This document shows, in pieces, positions 56,904-64,000 of a DNA stretch of 64,000 nucleotides. Position 1 is the first letter of the stretch. Each line of letters opens with the position of its first letter. Source of the DNA: Phycisphaerales bacterium (GTDB lineage Bacteria > Planctomycetota > Phycisphaerae > Phycisphaerales > UBA1924); NCBI GenBank assembly GCA_023382935.1, contig JAHDXL010000004.1, positions 148,122-212,121 on the forward strand. The letters are read 5' to 3'. A program made the position numbers and the translations under genes. Below the pieces are notes generated by a model. It ran no database searches. It worked only from the letters and a program-made list of their open reading frames with translations, and was not told the DNA's origin.

Positions 56904-57102
56904 CGCGCCGTCCTCTCTGAAGGGGGAACCGGAGCCCGAGAAGCCCATCGGCCCGACCGGCGACCGACTTTTGTGCGATTTGGTCGCGATTGGTCAAGTT
57001 TGCGCTCAGGTTTGATAACCGGCGCTCGCGGCATCTGCACTTTGCTAATCTAACCTTCACATTTATCTGCCCGAGCCTGCCACATATCGCTGGAAAAACC
57101 AC

Positions 57103-58323
57103 ATGCTCGCCACCGACGCCCTCACGGTCGCAGTCTTGTCCCCGGTCGTGCTGGCCGGCAATCCGACCTCCACCCCGCTTCCTCTGGATGCCCAGGAGCG
57201 ATCTGTTGTTTCCACCGGAACCGGGGGGCACAACAGCAAGTTCTTCGTCGCCTCCGCCGACAGGGCTTTCCGCCTGAACATGGGTGGACAGGTCCAGTTC
57301 CGATACAACGCCAACTTCCGGGACGACCCCGGCCCCAACGCCAACGGCGGCGACGACGACCAGACCACCCTCGGCTTCCACACGAGGCGCACCAAGATCG
57401 AGTGGGGCGGGCACGTCTACGAGAAGTGGAACTTCAAACTCGTCGGCGCCTTCAGCCGTACCAGCGGCTCGTTCATCCTCGAAGACATCATCCTCTCCTG
57501 CAAGTTCGACAACGACGTCATCATCAACTGGGGACAGTTCAAACTCCCGATCCTCCGCGAAGAGTCAATCTCGAGCAAGTACCAACTCGCGGCCGACCGG
57601 TCAATCGCCAACGAGGTCTTCAACCAGGACCGCTCCCAAGCGGTGCAGATCGGCTGGCAGGGTGATCGCATCCGCCTGCTCGGTGCCATATCCGACGGCA
57701 CGTTTGCCGCGAACTCCACCTTCAATTCATCGGCCGAGGCGGACATCGCGCTGACCGCCCGGGCCGAGATTCGCCTCGGCGAGGCCGCCTGGAAGGAGTT
57801 CGATGACTTCACGTCCTTCCGCGGCGACGAACGCGGCGCGCTCATCGGCGCCGCCGTGCACTGGCAGACCGCAGGCGACACCAACCCATCCACACCATCG
57901 AGCACCGACACGCTGCTCTACACCATCGACGCGGGGTACGACGGCGGAGGCTGGAACCTCTACGCAGCGTTCATCGGTCGATCCACTGACGCCCCCGGGG
58001 GTGCCAACTTCCACGACTTCGGAGCCGTGGCACAGGGAGGCGTGTTCGTCAGCGAGCGCACCGAACTGTTCGCCCGCTGGGACGCGGTCTTTCCCGATTC
58101 CGACCGCGCCAGCAGCGACGACTTCCACACGGTCGCGGCGGGCGTCAACCACTACTTCATCCCCGACAGTCACGCCCTCAAGTTCACGGCCGATGTGCAG
58201 TGGTTCCTCGACGACCAGGCCTCGAGCAGCAGTTTGGTCGGTTCCAACGAGGGCGTCGGACTCATGGCCGACAGTCATGACGACCAGATCGCCCTGCGGA
58301 TCCAGATGCAACTGCTTTTCTAG
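57103..58323 (+). CDS. Phosphate-selective porin OprO/OprP family outer-membrane protein
   Basis: The 406-residue beta-barrel protein ends in QMQLLF (aromatic terminal residue for Bam insertion). It contains GGQVQFRYNANFRDD, DDQTTLGFHTRRTKIEWGG, NWGQFKLPILREESISS and AADRSIANEVFNQDR, all typical of OprP-like porins (poorly selective in many bacteria). The signal peptide region (MLATDALTVAVLSPVVLAG) lacks the usual basic residues, and no upstream ATG, GTG or TTG in frame offers them. The 199-base region before it (to nhaA) is AT-richer than average and probably holds both promoters. Confidence 0.88.
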   Translation: MLATDALTVAVLSPVVLAGNPTSTPLPLDAQERSVVSTGTGGHNSKFFVASADRAFRLNMGGQVQFRYNANFRDDPGPNANGGDDDQTTLGFHTRRTKIEWGGHVYEKWNFKLVGAFSRTSGSFILEDIILSCKFDNDVIINWGQFKLPILREESISSKYQLAADRSIANEVFNQDRSQAVQIGWQGDRIRLLGAISDGTFAANSTFNSSAEADIALTARAEIRLGEAAWKEFDDFTSFRGDERGALIGAAVHWQTAGDTNPSTPSSTDTLLYTIDAGYDGGGWNLYAAFIGRSTDAPGGANFHDFGAVAQGGVFVSERTELFARWDAVFPDSDRASSDDFHTVAAGVNHYFIPDSHALKFTADVQWFLDDQASSSSLVGSNEGVGLMADSHDDQIALRIQMQLLF

Positions 58324-58498
58324 AGGCCCGGATTCTGCGCACGCACGAATCGCGCCGCGTCGACTCTCGCGTGGAGAAGGCAACTCGACATGCCGCATCG
58401 ACGCGAACGAAGGGCTTTCGGCAGGGCGGGCCTGCCACCGGCCTGTCCCGACACCTCGCCCGTGCGTCGGCGCCGAAATGATCACCTGCGAGAGCAAG

Positions 58499-58527
58499 AA
58501 AAAACGCCGGGACCTTTGCGCCCGACG
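58499..58527 (-). terminator. Rho-independent terminator of the alpha-CTD/TPR gene
   Basis: On the minus strand CGTCGGG pairs with CCCGGCG (7 bp) around a 9-base loop, followed by TTTTTT. It lies 25 bases after the stop of the gene at 58552. The rest of 58324-58551 shows no gene. Confidence 0.75.
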
Positions 58528-58551
58528 TCCGTTCTTTGGCGTTCCGCCGGC

Positions 58552-59523
58552 TCACATCTCCGGCAGCGGCTCGGCCTCGACTTCGTCCTCCTCCAGCGTC
58601 CGGAGTGAAAGGCCCATTTCGGTCAGCCGCTCGCGCACCTCCTGCAGCGAGGTGGCGCCGAAGTTCTTCACGCCCATCAACTCGGCCTCGGTGTGGCTGA
58701 CCAGGTCGCCGATGGTCTGAATGTTGAGCAACTGCAGCGCCTTGCGCGCCCGCACCGACAACTGCAGGTCGCTGACCAACTTGTTGAGCACTGCTTCCTT
58801 GCCGCTGCCGCGCAGGCGGTCCATGATCTGCCGCCGCGCCGCCCGGTGCGCATCCTCCAGCCCCTGCCCCAGGCGCAGCCCCTTCTGCGAGAGCATGCGC
58901 TTGATCTCCTCCAGCGAACTCTCGCCGAAGTTCTTGTAACTCATCAACTCGGCCTCGGTGATCCGCAGCAGGTCACCCAGCGTGCGGATGTTCATCTTCT
59001 TCAGACAGGTCCGTGCCCGCACCGACAACTCGAAGTCCGTCACCGGCGTGTCGAACAACGCCTTCTTCTTCAGCAGGTCGCGATCCGATTCCTCCTCGAC
59101 CATCATCTCGCGGCTGGCCTGGATGTCTTTCATGAACAAGCGTCCGCGCACGTGGTTGGGGTTGGTCTCCAGCACCTGCCGTACGCAGCGCTCCGCCCGC
59201 ACGTAGTCCCCGCGGTCCTCGTACATCACCGCCAGGTTGAGGAGTGCGTTCACCGGCGCCGGCTGCGCGTCGGTCACACGCTCGTACAGCGACAGCGCCT
59301 CGTCCTCCTCCCCCACCAGGTCGAGCAGGTAGGCCAGGTGGAACATCGCGTCGGCGTTCTCCGGGTCGGCCGCCAGGGCCCGACGATACTCACTGATCGC
59401 GCCGGCCTTTTCGCCCGCATTGATCAGGTTGCTCGCCGCGGTCAGGTGCCGACGGGCCGTCTCAAAGTCTCGATGGCTGGCAGGACCGGCGCCGATGACC
59501 ACGTCCATGGGATCGCTGTGCAT
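58552..59523 (-). CDS. TPR protein fused to two RNA polymerase alpha-CTD domains
   Basis: The 323-residue protein has an N-terminal TPR region (~20-135, AGAISEYRRALAADPENADA and ALLNLAVMYEDRGDYVRAER) and then two copies of the RNA polymerase alpha C-terminal domain (about 162-220 and 250-310). Each copy has LSVRAR, a middle RTLGDLLRITEAELM or QTIGDLVSHTEAELM, and NFGESSLEEI or NFGATSLQEV. E. coli alpha R265, needed for UP-element DNA contact, is kept in both (R169, R258); N268 and K298 are not. It may link transcription to a TPR partner, or use the domains for other contacts. ATG 59523 has AAGGA upstream. A strong terminator follows. Confidence 0.85.
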   Translation of the reverse strand: MHSDPMDVVIGAGPASHRDFETARRHLTAASNLINAGEKAGAISEYRRALAADPENADAMFHLAYLLDLVGEEDEALSLYERVTDAQPAPVNALLNLAVMYEDRGDYVRAERCVRQVLETNPNHVRGRLFMKDIQASREMMVEEESDRDLLKKKALFDTPVTDFELSVRARTCLKKMNIRTLGDLLRITEAELMSYKNFGESSLEEIKRMLSQKGLRLGQGLEDAHRAARRQIMDRLRGSGKEAVLNKLVSDLQLSVRARKALQLLNIQTIGDLVSHTEAELMGVKNFGATSLQEVRERLTEMGLSLRTLEEDEVEAEPLPEM

Positions 59524-59584
59524 TGCTTCAATTCCTTGGGGTTGACCGGTCTGAACCATAGACCCGGGCCACGGGAGAGGCCAA

Positions 59585-61132
59585 TTACGCCGCCCCGGGG
59601 CTTGCCCCGGGCGCCATCGGGTCCGGCGGGAGGTTGTGCAGCGGGTCGTCGTGGGTCAACTTGATCGACTTCCACTTTCCCCCCAGAAACCGCCAGAGGT
59701 ACAGAAAACTGAGCAGAATGATGTACGCCGCCGCCGCCGACCACGGGCCCAGCGAGCCCCACTGCGGGAACACCTCGATCACCACGTGCCCCAGCCCCAT
59801 GATGCAGCCCCAACTGACCACCACGGTCACCAAGCCCGGCCACACGGTGTCCCCGGCCCCGCGCAACGCCGCCGACATCGTGATCGCCATCGCGTCAAAC
59901 ACCTGAAAGACCGCCCCGCACAGCATCACCATGCCACCCACACGGATGACCTCGCCCGCCACCTCGGCCGCATGATCGCCCGTCCCCCGGTTCACGAACA
60001 CGCTCACCAGCCAGGTCCGGAAAAGCACAAACATCAGGGCGCAGGCTCCCATATACCCAACCGTCAGGCTCAGCGCAAGCCACGTGCGGCGCACCGCAAG
60101 ATCCGGTCGGCCGGCCCCGATCGCCTTGCCCACCACCGCCTGCGTCGCGATCGAGATCCCTACGGCCGGCATGAACGACAGGTGCATGTACTGCAGCCCG
60201 ATGAACCCGGCCGTGTTCGCCACCGTCCCCGCCCGCTCCACCATCGCAGCACTGGCCCCGCTCAGTGCCGCCGCCCGTTCGCCCGCGCGCCCGATCAGGT
60301 TCGACATCAGATACTGCCAGCAGACCAGTTCCGATAAGAAAGTCAGCCCCGCCGGCCACCCAACCCGGAACAGGTCGCGCACACACACGACGCTGACCCG
60401 CCAGGCGCGGCGCGTCCCGAAGCGCTCGTGGAACCCGGGACTGAGGAACACCGCCAGCGGGATCAGCAACTCCACGCTTGTTCCGATCACCGTTCCCCAC
60501 GCCGCACCGGCCACGCCCATCTCCGGAAACCCCAAGTGCCCGAAGATCAGCGCATAGTTGGCCCCGATGTTGGTCAGGTTACCCAGCACCGTGGCCACCA
60601 AGACCACGCCCGGACGATGCAACCCGAAGAAGTAGTTCTGGATCGATTTGGTCAGGATCGTGACCACCGAGCACCCGACCAGGATCTGCGCATATTGAAC
60701 TTCATAGCGCAGCAGTTCTCCGTCGTGCCCGTAGCCCTCGAACAGCGGACGGATGAGCAGAAGCGCCGGCAGCATGAGCATCAGCCAGTACGCCAGCCCG
60801 ATCCACATCGCGTTCCACGCATAGGCCGACCCGCGCTGCGGTTTACCCGCCCCTAGGTTCTGGCTGACGAACGAACTGACCACGCCTGACATGCCGACGA
60901 CAAAAGTGATCGCCGTCCACGCCGTTACGCCCCCGTTGCCTTGTGCGGCGATGTACACCGGGTCGGGCCCGATCTCCTTGACCATCAACTTGTCGACGAA
61001 CTGCATCACCGTGTAACTGGCCATCGTCGCCACCGACGGCCCGGCGATGCGCAACAACTCCATCAGCGCACCGCTGTCCTCTTCCTGAGCCGCGAGGGCT
61101 CCGGGCTCTCTCACCTCTTCCAGATGCGTCAT
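59585..61132 (-). CDS. MATE-family multidrug exporter
   Basis: The 515-residue protein has about 12 membrane helices in two related halves: ELLRIAGPSVATMASYTVMQF, VSQNLGAGKPQRG and GVAGAAWGTVIGTSVELLIPL in the first, MPAVGISIATQAVVGKAIGAG in the second. It likely exports cationic compounds using Na+ or H+. ATG 61132 is preferred; a TTG at 61138 overlaps the pdxA stop. It is transcribed with pdxA. Confidence 0.9.
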   Translation of the reverse strand: MTHLEEVREPGALAAQEEDSGALMELLRIAGPSVATMASYTVMQFVDKLMVKEIGPDPVYIAAQGNGGVTAWTAITFVVGMSGVVSSFVSQNLGAGKPQRGSAYAWNAMWIGLAYWLMLMLPALLLIRPLFEGYGHDGELLRYEVQYAQILVGCSVVTILTKSIQNYFFGLHRPGVVLVATVLGNLTNIGANYALIFGHLGFPEMGVAGAAWGTVIGTSVELLIPLAVFLSPGFHERFGTRRAWRVSVVCVRDLFRVGWPAGLTFLSELVCWQYLMSNLIGRAGERAAALSGASAAMVERAGTVANTAGFIGLQYMHLSFMPAVGISIATQAVVGKAIGAGRPDLAVRRTWLALSLTVGYMGACALMFVLFRTWLVSVFVNRGTGDHAAEVAGEVIRVGGMVMLCGAVFQVFDAMAITMSAALRGAGDTVWPGLVTVVVSWGCIMGLGHVVIEVFPQWGSLGPWSAAAAYIILLSFLYLWRFLGGKWKSIKLTHDDPLHNLPPDPMAPGASPGAA

Positions 61133-61134
61133 CG

Positions 61135-62184
61135 TCAATCCTGCTTGCCGCCAACCCGCCCGGCGGCCTCGGCCGCCATCGTCAGCGCCGCGCGCATGCT
61201 CCCCGGATCGGCCATTCCTCTTCCCGCGATGTCAAAGGCCGTTCCGTGATCCGGGCTGGTCCGAATGATTGGCAGCCCGATCGTCATGTTCACCGATTCG
61301 TCCCGTGACAGAAGTTTCACCGGGATCAACCCCTGGTCGTGGTACATCGCCACCACCAGGTCATACCTGCCCGCCACCGCTGCGTTGAAGATCGTGTCGG
61401 CCGGAAATGGACCGCTGGCATCGATCCCCGCATTGCGCGCGTGCTCGATCGCCGGCGCGATCAACCGCTCTTCTTCATCTCCCATCAATCCACCTTCGCC
61501 TGCGTGCGGGTTGAGCCCGCACACCGCCACCCGGGGCCTCGACACGCCCACCATGCGGCATCCCTCGGCCCCAAGGTCGATCGCATCAAACACTTTGCCA
61601 ATCGTCAGCACGTTGCGAATGTCCATCAGCGGCAGGTGAATCGTCGCCAGCACCACCCGCAAGCGGGGCCCGACAAACATCATCGCCACCCGCCTGGCGC
61701 GAAAACGGTCGGCCAGCAACTCTGTGTGCCCGGGAAAGCGCGCCTTGCCCGCCATCACCCACGCGGCCTTGCTGATCGGGCCCGTCACGATCGCCGACAC
61801 GCGCTCGCCGTCACCCGCCTGCGCCATGCCGATCACTTCTTCGACCAATCGATGCGAGTACGCCCCCGCCCCGCGATTGGGCGTCGGCAACGCCTCCACC
61901 GCACCCCACGAACGATCGGTGTCGAGCAGCACGACGTCATGCACTCCCGTCGCCCGCAGGGCCGGAGATCCGAACGGCACGGACCACCAGTACGGCTCGA
62001 TTCCCCGAGACTCGGCCGCCCGGTGCAGCACCGACTCCGAGCCCAGCACGAGAAACCGACCTCGCCGCCACAATTCCCGATCCGCCAGCGCCGCCACCAC
62101 TACCTCGGGCCCGATTCCCCCCGGATCGCCGATGGTGACCGCAACGCTTGGTCGGTTTTCGGATGGGTTGGACGAGGTCGGCAT
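61135..62184 (-). CDS. pdxA: 4-hydroxythreonine-4-phosphate dehydrogenase
   Basis: The 349-residue enzyme of vitamin B6 synthesis has VAVTIGDPGGIGPEVVV, IVTGPISKAAWVMAG, FPGHTELLADRF (metal His), ATIHLPLMDI, AMYHDQGLIPVKLL (metal His) and TSPDHGTAFDIAG. All three metal histidines are present. ATG 62184 starts just before the family core and has no clear ribosome site. It is divergent from the protease gene, with a 214-base gap in which I find no further gene. Confidence 0.94.
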   Translation of the reverse strand: MPTSSNPSENRPSVAVTIGDPGGIGPEVVVAALADRELWRRGRFLVLGSESVLHRAAESRGIEPYWWSVPFGSPALRATGVHDVVLLDTDRSWGAVEALPTPNRGAGAYSHRLVEEVIGMAQAGDGERVSAIVTGPISKAAWVMAGKARFPGHTELLADRFRARRVAMMFVGPRLRVVLATIHLPLMDIRNVLTIGKVFDAIDLGAEGCRMVGVSRPRVAVCGLNPHAGEGGLMGDEEERLIAPAIEHARNAGIDASGPFPADTIFNAAVAGRYDLVVAMYHDQGLIPVKLLSRDESVNMTIGLPIIRTSPDHGTAFDIAGRGMADPGSMRAALTMAAEAAGRVGGKQD

Positions 62185-62398
62185 GGGGGATGCTAGCCCG
62201 TGGCCGATGTGCCCCTCCCGGCACATTATCCGGACGCATGCCTGGTGCAACCACTCGAACAGGCGGAACGTACTGCCAAGAGAGGGTTCGCCCGTCACGC
62301 AGGCCCGGGAATTTCTGCTCGCCCGCCGCGGAACGGTCGTTACACTCGCAGGGCGTTCGCTTCTGTGAGGAAGGGGATTCTGCCAGGGGAGTCTGCGC

Positions 62399-64000
62399 AT
62401 GGTCGATTGGAATCGCCGTCAACGCCGCGCTGCGGCGCTTATGCTCGTCGCATTGGCTGGGTCGTCCTTCGCTGCCGGTCCAGCCGGCGGCCGGCTCGAC
62501 CTCAGGACCGGGCTGGTCGCCACGACACAGGCCAACAACCTGCTTGCCCAGGCCGCCACACCCTTGCCGGCCGACCTTCGCGTCGCGGTCGTCCAACTTG
62601 ATGGCCCGATCACCCCCGCCCGCCGCGCCGCGCTTCAGGCCGCCGGCGTGGTCCTCTTCGACTACCTGCCCGATTTCGCCTATGCCGCCGATCTCTCCGG
62701 CGCCGACATGGCCCGGGTGCGCGCCCTCGACTTCGTCACCTGGGTCGGGCGCTTCGAGAACGAGTGGAAGATCTCGCCCACGCTGGGCGCCCAGCCCGCC
62801 CAGTCCACGGAGCGCCAAGCCGTTCTCGCCCGCGGGCTCAATCCCGTTCAAATCGTGCTGTGGCCGAACGCCAACATCCAGCAGACGCTGGACGCGCTGC
62901 GCGCGATCAACGGGCTGAGCATCACCGAGCACGACCTGGTCGATCGCGAAGTGATCGTCACCGCCGAAATCCCGCTGGCGGCCACCGCCAGCGTTGTCTC
63001 GCTGCCCGGTGTCCGATGGATCGAAGACCAGCCCGAAATCACGTTGCGCAACCAGACGGTCCGCTGGGTTGACCAGAGCAACGTCTCTAACCAAGTGCCC
63101 ATCCACAGCCACGGCATCCGCGGGCAGGGGCAGTTGATCGCCGTGCAGGACGGGCGCGTCGACGTCAACCACTGCTCCTTCACCGACCCCGAAGGCGACC
63201 CGATCGGACCCAATCACCGCAAGATCGAGGCCTACTTCACCACCACCGGGGCCGACTCCCATGGCACGCATGTGGCGGGTACCGCTCTGGGCGATGGCGG
63301 CGCGGACAACAACCTCCGCGGCATGGCCTACCAGGCCCGCCTCGTCTACGACATCTACTCCTCCGTCGCCTCGACGATGAACACCAAACTTACCCGGAAC
63401 TACAACGCCGGCGCCGCCATCCACACCAACAGTTGGGGCAACGACGGCACCACCGCCTACGACGCGCTGGCACGCACCATCGACGTTTTCAGTTACAACA
63501 ACGACGACAACCTGGTCATCTTCGCCGTCACCAACACCTCCACGCTCAAGAACCCGGAGAACTCCAAGAACTGCCTGGCGGTCGGGGCTTCGCAGGACAC
63601 GCCCAACCAGGCCAGTTTCTGCTCCGGCGGCTCAGGTCCCACCATCGATGGACGCCGCAAGCCTGAAATCTACAGCCCCGGCTGCAGCACACAATCGGTC
63701 GCAGCCGGCACGGCCTGCTCCTCGACCTCGATGACGGGCACCTCCATGGCCGCCCCGTCCATCGCCGGGTGCGCCGCCCTGGCACGCCAGTACTTCACCG
63801 ATGGCTTCTATCCCTCCGGTGCAGCCAACCCCAACGACGGCTTCATCCCTTCCGGCGCCCTGGTCAAGGCCACGCTGCTCAACTCGGCCGTGGACATGAC
63901 CGGCGTCACCGGCTACCCCTCCAATCGCGAGGGCTGGGGGCGCGTCCTCCTGGCCAACTCCATGGTCTTCAGCGATGGCAACCGCAACATCATCATCCGC
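62399..64000 (+). CDS. Secreted subtilisin-like (S8) serine protease, cut by the window end
   Basis: The frame runs 534 codons to the window edge without a stop. It starts at ATG 62399 (GGGGAG seven bases upstream) with a signal peptide (AALMLVALAGSSFA). A ~200-residue propeptide-like region follows, with VAVVQLDGPITPARR. The S8 domain has the triad: D in LIAVQDGRVDVNHC, H in DSHGTHVAGTALG and S in GTSMAAPSIAG, with N in HTNSWGND for the oxyanion hole. The C-terminal part, possibly with a sorting tail, is missing. Confidence 0.93.
   Translation, partial: MVDWNRRQRRAAALMLVALAGSSFAAGPAGGRLDLRTGLVATTQANNLLAQAATPLPADLRVAVVQLDGPITPARRAALQAAGVVLFDYLPDFAYAADLSGADMARVRALDFVTWVGRFENEWKISPTLGAQPAQSTERQAVLARGLNPVQIVLWPNANIQQTLDALRAINGLSITEHDLVDREVIVTAEIPLAATASVVSLPGVRWIEDQPEITLRNQTVRWVDQSNVSNQVPIHSHGIRGQGQLIAVQDGRVDVNHCSFTDPEGDPIGPNHRKIEAYFTTTGADSHGTHVAGTALGDGGADNNLRGMAYQARLVYDIYSSVASTMNTKLTRNYNAGAAIHTNSWGNDGTTAYDALARTIDVFSYNNDDNLVIFAVTNTSTLKNPENSKNCLAVGASQDTPNQASFCSGGSGPTIDGRRKPEIYSPGCSTQSVAAGTACSSTSMTGTSMAAPSIAGCAALARQYFTDGFYPSGAANPNDGFIPSGALVKATLLNSAVDMTGVTGYPSNREGWGRVLLANSMVFSDGNRNIIIR

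Follow-up and report, generated by a model that had tools for sequence, protein, structure and literature searches.

A protein that joins a TPR domain to two RNA polymerase alpha-CTDs is encoded in the window, the term used here for the whole stretch of 64,000 nucleotides of Phycisphaerales DNA that was analysed, and judged from sequence searches its family looks near-universal in Planctomycetota. The domain architecture, spread, conservation of the DNA-contact pair and gene linkage were established computationally. The best reading, which we hold at about even confidence, is that of a predicted trans-acting, minor-groove-binding adaptor. In bacteria, UP elements and activators normally dock onto the polymerase through the alpha-CTD. 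A tandem of such domains that is separate from the polymerase, is joined to a docking domain, occurs near phylum-wide and diverges more slowly than the CTD of the polymerase points to a core factor that has gone unrecognised, in a phylum with little-studied gene regulation. Newly noted here is a same-strand ruvA that recurs after the gene outside the window's order, and this pairing provides a concrete second hypothesis.

The gene, its domains and its neighbours in the window

The longest open frame (58552-59559, minus strand) encodes P0001, a protein of 335 aa that begins at the first ATG of the frame at 59559. In 28 of 94 relatives at most 11 codons lie between the opening of the frame and the equivalent of M13, mostly with that ATG as the sole start, and the alignments of homologues to P0001 begin at about residue 12-13. 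Because of these two observations the start at 59523 is preferred (Table 1).

Table 1. Positions of the gene, its domains and adjacent features in the window; residue numbers are those of P0001
Feature	Position	Strand	Details
CDS of TPR + double alpha-CTD protein	58552..59523	minus	323 aa from M13 of the longest frame
TPR domain	59104..59466	minus	helices at residues 32-152; Pfam TPR_2 and others
alpha-CTD 1 (CTD1)	58888..59070	minus	PF03118, 75.2 bits; R265 equivalent R181, N294 equivalent N210
alpha-CTD 2 (CTD2)	58618..58800	minus	PF03118, 67.6 bits; R265 equivalent R270, N294 equivalent N299
MATE family efflux transporter, upstream	59585..61138	minus	TIGR00797, 184.8 bits (cut-off 147.4)
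pdxA	61135..62190 (end is that of the part searched)	minus	TIGR00557, 347.6 bits (cut-off 290.35)
Hairpin with U-run after the stop codon, possible terminator	58485..58551	minus	-30.2 kcal/mol, z -1.68

The preliminary description had proposed tandem alpha-CTDs fused to TPRs, and the Pfam matches bear this out. RNA_pol_A_CTD (PF03118) matches the protein in two stretches with 133.9 bits against a curated cut-off of 23.8, and TPR_2 (PF07719) matches it in three stretches with 51 bits against a curated cut-off of 27. The helical-hairpin fold of the TPRs is found both in the structure model and in its matches. The AlphaFold2 model of P0001 has a mean pLDDT of 89.7 and consists of the TPR helices and two helical domains at the CTDs, with a block pLDDT of 96-98 at residues 31-150; the pTM of 0.56 leaves the relative placement of the domains uncertain. 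TPR folds in the PDB match the model (e.g., Z 17.2, rmsd 2.2 over 126 residues); this whole-model search, whose 50 best rows include TPR folds, is uninformative on the CTDs. A member of 450 aa from another family (L107) is modelled alike, except that its TPR array is longer (pLDDT 92.1, pTM 0.68). Residues of the TPRs such as G83, A88, N108 and P134 are invariant across 56 sequences, and the TPRs, which had been suggested to recruit a protein partner, probably form a docking domain.

The lack of a polymerase assembly domain was also confirmed. The RpoA equivalog models match by their C-terminal part alone, the best stretches lying within profile positions 215-338, and score far under the cut-off (e.g., 141.4 against 302 bits), which indicates that the alpha-NTD is absent. 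The protein thus shares with RpoA the alpha-CTD, in two copies, and lacks the alpha-NTD that serves dimerisation and assembly. The true RpoA is encoded elsewhere in the genome, where RNA_pol_A_CTD matches three times: once on contig C1, in RpoA, and twice in the TPR/double-CTD gene. Lacking the alpha-NTD, the protein has no means of joining the polymerase in the way that alpha does, and it would therefore act in trans.

The gene stands on the minus strand in the order pdxA, MATE, TPR/double-CTD gene, with an overlap of 4 nt between pdxA and MATE and 61 nt between the stop codon of MATE and the start at 59523. Among 80 relatives from named genome contigs, some with little flanking sequence at the locus, 69 have a MATE homologue, which in 59 is the immediate same-strand upstream neighbour, and 48 of the 80 loci have a pdxA homologue. 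Rather than standing alone, the gene may close a transcription unit in the window's order. It had been described as a single gene with its own terminator. The second part of this claim agrees with the hairpin and U-run after the stop codon, at which the terminator scan lists nothing and which 10 of 200 shuffles equal in folding; the first part is doubtful given the same-strand MATE gene close upstream here and directly upstream in most relatives. No sigma-70-like promoter was found in 57000-63000. The gene that follows in the window, at 57103-58323 on the plus strand, is convergent and porin-like (Porin_O_P, PF07396, 46.3 bits against a cut-off of 20.9).

DNA-contact residues and divergence relative to RpoA

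The CTDs were compared in 110 family frames, which comprise 95 of the window's order or closer (L004-L098, window included) and 15 others (L099-L113); L002 and L003 were left out as duplicates of the window, and the set was not further dereplicated. Positions are numbered by alignment to E. coli RpoA. In the available part of a cryo-EM report (PMC7822876), the side chains of E. coli R265 and N294 are inserted into the minor groove and K291 and K298 touch the backbone; the available part of another paper (PMC5101437) names R265, N294 and K298. Exactly two CTDs are present in 110/110 family frames versus one in 30/30 RpoAs of the phylum. Both R265 and N294 are kept in 109 of the 110 CTD1s and in all 110 CTD2s, compared with 13 of the 30 RpoAs, and a member with Q at 265 in CTD1 is L098. 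G296 and E302 are present in all 220 CTDs, S299 in 107/110 CTD1s and 110/110 CTD2s, and position 293 is K or R in 220/220. The early statement that the R265 equivalent and the 'NFG..S' region are retained applies to both CTDs. Neither of the lysines that touch the backbone in E. coli is retained, with K or R at 291 in 1/220 CTDs and at 298 in 0/220; position 298 is T in 30/30 RpoAs of the phylum.

The two domains differ from each other in several positions. Position 268, N in E. coli, is T in CTD1 of 84/95 members of the window's order and N in 14/15 others; in CTD2 it is K or R in 95/95 of the window's order. R267, F260, M273 and an acidic residue at 297 (110/110 CTD1s) are the hallmarks of CTD1 and distinguish it from the RpoA CTD. 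CTD1 also has an acidic surface formed by D259 (109/110), E261 (101/110, with D in the remaining nine) and E286 (110/110), known as the '261 determinant'. Of the 95 CTD2s of the window's order, 80 have Q or N at position 261. At least two family members, L155 and L160, carry a degenerate CTD2. Over 14 hand-picked DNA-side positions the mean net charge is +1.9 for CTD1 and +2.8 for CTD2; the RpoAs of the phylum, 30 in number, average +0.5, and E. coli has +3.0. The charge of the DNA-binding face, the reversal of which had been named as evidence against the early proposal of a stand-alone UP-element or activator adaptor, is thus not reversed. That proposal is partly supported. Both CTDs look DNA-competent by these residues, and minor-groove binding via R265 and N294 is predicted; conservation of the pair could be partly structural, and the missing lysines, the changes at 268, the acidic 297, Q265 in L098 and the degenerate CTD2s argue against treating the domains as plain equivalents of the E. 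coli one.

In the preferred reading, R265 and N294 of both CTDs would grip A/T-rich narrow minor grooves as the alpha-CTDs of the polymerase do at UP elements, the linker would allow avid binding of both domains at a single site, and a protein partner would sit in the TPR groove. In this way the protein may deliver to DNA a factor bound to polymerase, an activator or some other protein that processes DNA; alternatively, it may compete with the polymerase's own alpha-CTD. Any effect on transcription is one that we infer. It is distinctly unlikely that the CTDs are mimics or decoys which bind the proteins that touch the alpha-CTD (sigma region 4, activators) rather than DNA and titrate or tether them. 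The acidic surface kept in CTD1 would suit such a role, and contacts between TPR proteins and alpha exist, as the available part of a study of the Salmonella TPR chaperone SicA (PMC10761746) describes binding of this protein, which has three TPR-like motifs, to RpoA and to an activator. SicA is a chaperone, however, whereas here the CTDs share one chain with the TPRs. A pure protein decoy would have no need of R265 and N294, yet these are kept more strictly than in the RpoA of the phylum, and the Q or N at 261 of most CTD2s of the window's order also argues against it.

Divergence was compared with that of RpoA in 23 genomes with both genes, which give 253 genome pairs that are not independent; seven of the 30 RpoA genomes were left out as they had no family locus in the set. 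The mean pairwise identity was 70.5% for CTD1, 58.9% for CTD2, 60.1% for the RpoA CTD, 62.4% for the RpoA NTD and 43.0% for the TPRs, and the identity of CTD1 was higher than that of the RpoA CTD in 202 of the pairs. CTD1 has a mean identity of 51% to the E. coli RpoA CTD and 45% to the CTDs of the 30 RpoAs from Planctomycetota. Both are members of the PF03118 family, and R265, N294, G296, S299 and E302 are shared; the TPR/double-CTD protein differs from RpoA in having TPRs in place of the assembly domain and two CTDs per chain. Position 294 of RpoA is S or A in 16/16 genomes of the window's class, namely G000 and 15 others among L114-L143, and N in 13/14 genomes outside the class. S or A at this position of the polymerase's own alpha-CTD may alter its reading of UP elements. 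A broader proposal, which is conjectural and in our estimate quite unlikely, is that Planctomycetota moved part of UP-element reading from the polymerase to a separate near-universal protein and that co-transcription with ruvA in many families would couple this reader to recombination or repair. It is drawn from the loss of N294 in the RpoA of the window's class, its retention in the stand-alone CTDs and the stronger conservation of CTD1 than of the polymerase's CTD.

Spread, inheritance and linkage to ruvA

The search for phylogenetic spread that had been recommended at the outset found the family through the phylum, with a best match of E below 1e-30 in 276 of the 294 genomes of the phylum sample (counted by eye). 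P0001 has matches in 294/294 genomes, but a bare match may be RpoA or any TPR; RpoA-like matches reach 2.3e-12 at best, nowhere near the threshold. The 18 genomes with a best E above 1e-30 (by eye) are mostly incomplete, and two of them are at least 90% complete. A profile search of these 18 found the gene split across two contigs in G091 and small open frames of 44-153 aa that match the CTD end in G008, G176, G031, G143 and G223, and the pieces look like contig ends; the other 12, with a completeness of 54-88%, were not explained by this search. In each of the 30 genomes searched for RpoA, a single RpoA exceeds the cut-off and a single frame has two CTD matches. TPRs with exactly two alpha-CTDs in every frame of the set above, together with the phylum-wide spread, define a planctomycete-wide family. 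Family distances track RpoA distances (Mantel r 0.85 over 23 genomes, with 0/2000 permutations as high), so inheritance looks vertical, and the protein is probably vertically inherited and core in Planctomycetota.

Presence outside the phylum was considered for G294, a genome titled Dehalococcoidia, in which a match of 506.7 bits lies on one 3.5-kb contig (L044, G294:C452), and was rejected. The contig is planctomycete-like, and in 60 other genomes of that phylum no full-length match was found, the best having 77.8 bits to the TPR part only; contamination or mislabelling is probable. For the phylum specificity suggested at the outset, the comparison covered this one other phylum. A protein from a record titled Cyanobacteria (L004) is 97% identical to that of the window.

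Near-universal occurrence in the phylum sample, two DNA-competent-looking domains on one chain and a basic DNA-side patch would also be consistent with a general nucleoid-associated protein, whose two CTDs bridge or coat A/T-rich DNA with no specific regulatory partner. We consider this very unlikely, as the TPR residues invariant in 56 sequences suggest a specific partner.

The strongest functional hint besides the domains is the linkage to ruvA. Outside the window's order, 59 loci were chosen among the matches listed in the phylum sample, and a same-strand RuvA frame follows the gene in 36 of them, 35 within 1 kb (tblastn) and one at 1.5 kb, often after a gap of tens of bases. The loci followed by ruvA span 28 families, counted from the locus labels, and the most shared neighbour is the RuvA cluster with 34 loci. 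Two RuvA frames that were scanned had 196.4 and 160.9 bits against the ruvA equivalog cut-off of 85. Five loci (L155, L160, L163, L197 and L212) have the string gene-ruvA-ruvB-queH-spoIID-tgt-secDF, the gene identities of which were model-checked on L155, and ruvA also on L215. In nine other loci spoIID, tgt or queH is the first recognised gene. Same-strand ruvA is absent from 23 of the 59 loci within the stretch covered. The string may be old inherited synteny because it also holds tRNA-modification and secretion genes. No convincing shared upstream gene was found in the ruvA group, where most of the clustered upstream frames inspected look by eye like transporters or shadow frames.

Helix-hairpin-helix motifs occur in the alpha-CTD and also in RuvA, a DNA-binding protein of this kind. 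None of the neighbouring genes identified, among them the linked ruvA, ruvB, tgt and secDF outside the window's order, works in transcription; this weighs against the adaptor reading and would allow for a part in DNA recombination. The protein might accordingly be a DNA-structure-binding partner of Holliday-junction processing that binds the junction or flanking DNA and brings its TPR partner to RuvA or RuvAB. We regard this as unlikely, although ruvA is the top shared downstream neighbour and five loci carry the full ruvAB string. More than a third of the outside-order loci lack a same-strand ruvA, the window's order shares MATE and pdxA upstream instead, and tgt, spoIID and secDF in the string are functionally unrelated, so the arrangement is perhaps inherited. 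The ruvC gene was found in 29/30 genomes, either on a different contig or no closer than 49 kb to the gene, which also speaks against a junction role. That the gene stands in for ruvC was rejected, with ruvC present elsewhere in those genomes and no nuclease family among the best-listed families of the protein. Likewise, no RuvA family is among the best 25 of 32 and the best 25 of 40 model families of P0001.

Other proteins with alpha-CTDs outside RpoA

The domains themselves are already known, as are other non-polymerase proteins with alpha-CTD-like stretches, and databases list TPR + RNA_pol_A_CTD architectures in planctomycetes. No description of the TPR/double-CTD family was recognised in the open-access full-text literature, judged by titles and abstract starts. 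The BREX kinase PglW has an alpha-CTD-like stretch, and the CTD region of P0001 matches PglW positions 771-872. PglW is, however, a long kinase of a defence system, and P0001 has 48.8 bits against a cut-off of 990 (NF033442). PRK07758, a hypothetical protein of 95 aa, is a short stand-alone alpha-CTD-like protein that P0001 matches at model positions 41-94, with 47.8 bits against a cut-off of 115 (NF005841); at 95 aa it has no room for TPRs and a second CTD.

Three of the 30 genomes searched for RpoA (G121, G291 and G048) hold further frames with alpha-CTD matches. In the planctomycete G121, a frame of 1423 aa with such a match (L226:1985-6253, minus strand) is PglW, with 1655.1 bits against the cut-off of 990, and the frames in G291 and G048 are of PglW-like size. 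G121 also has a frame of 137 aa (G121:C4:337076-337285, L227) with 56.2 bits to the rpoA model, a possible stand-alone CTD that was missed by the motif filter. In the phage and plasmid collections 20 and 84 records, respectively, match the CTD half, and the best 15 of the 20 phage and the best 15 of the 84 plasmid records carry an RNA polymerase alpha annotation or lack a named feature. Viral contigs of 9.6-205 kb (L220:2764-3201, L221, L222, L223 and L224:2968-3192) encode short stand-alone alpha-CTD proteins, which could be phage-borne mimics; those of L220 and L224 match PF03118 with 67.5 and 71.6 bits and look by eye similar to the CTD2 of the family.
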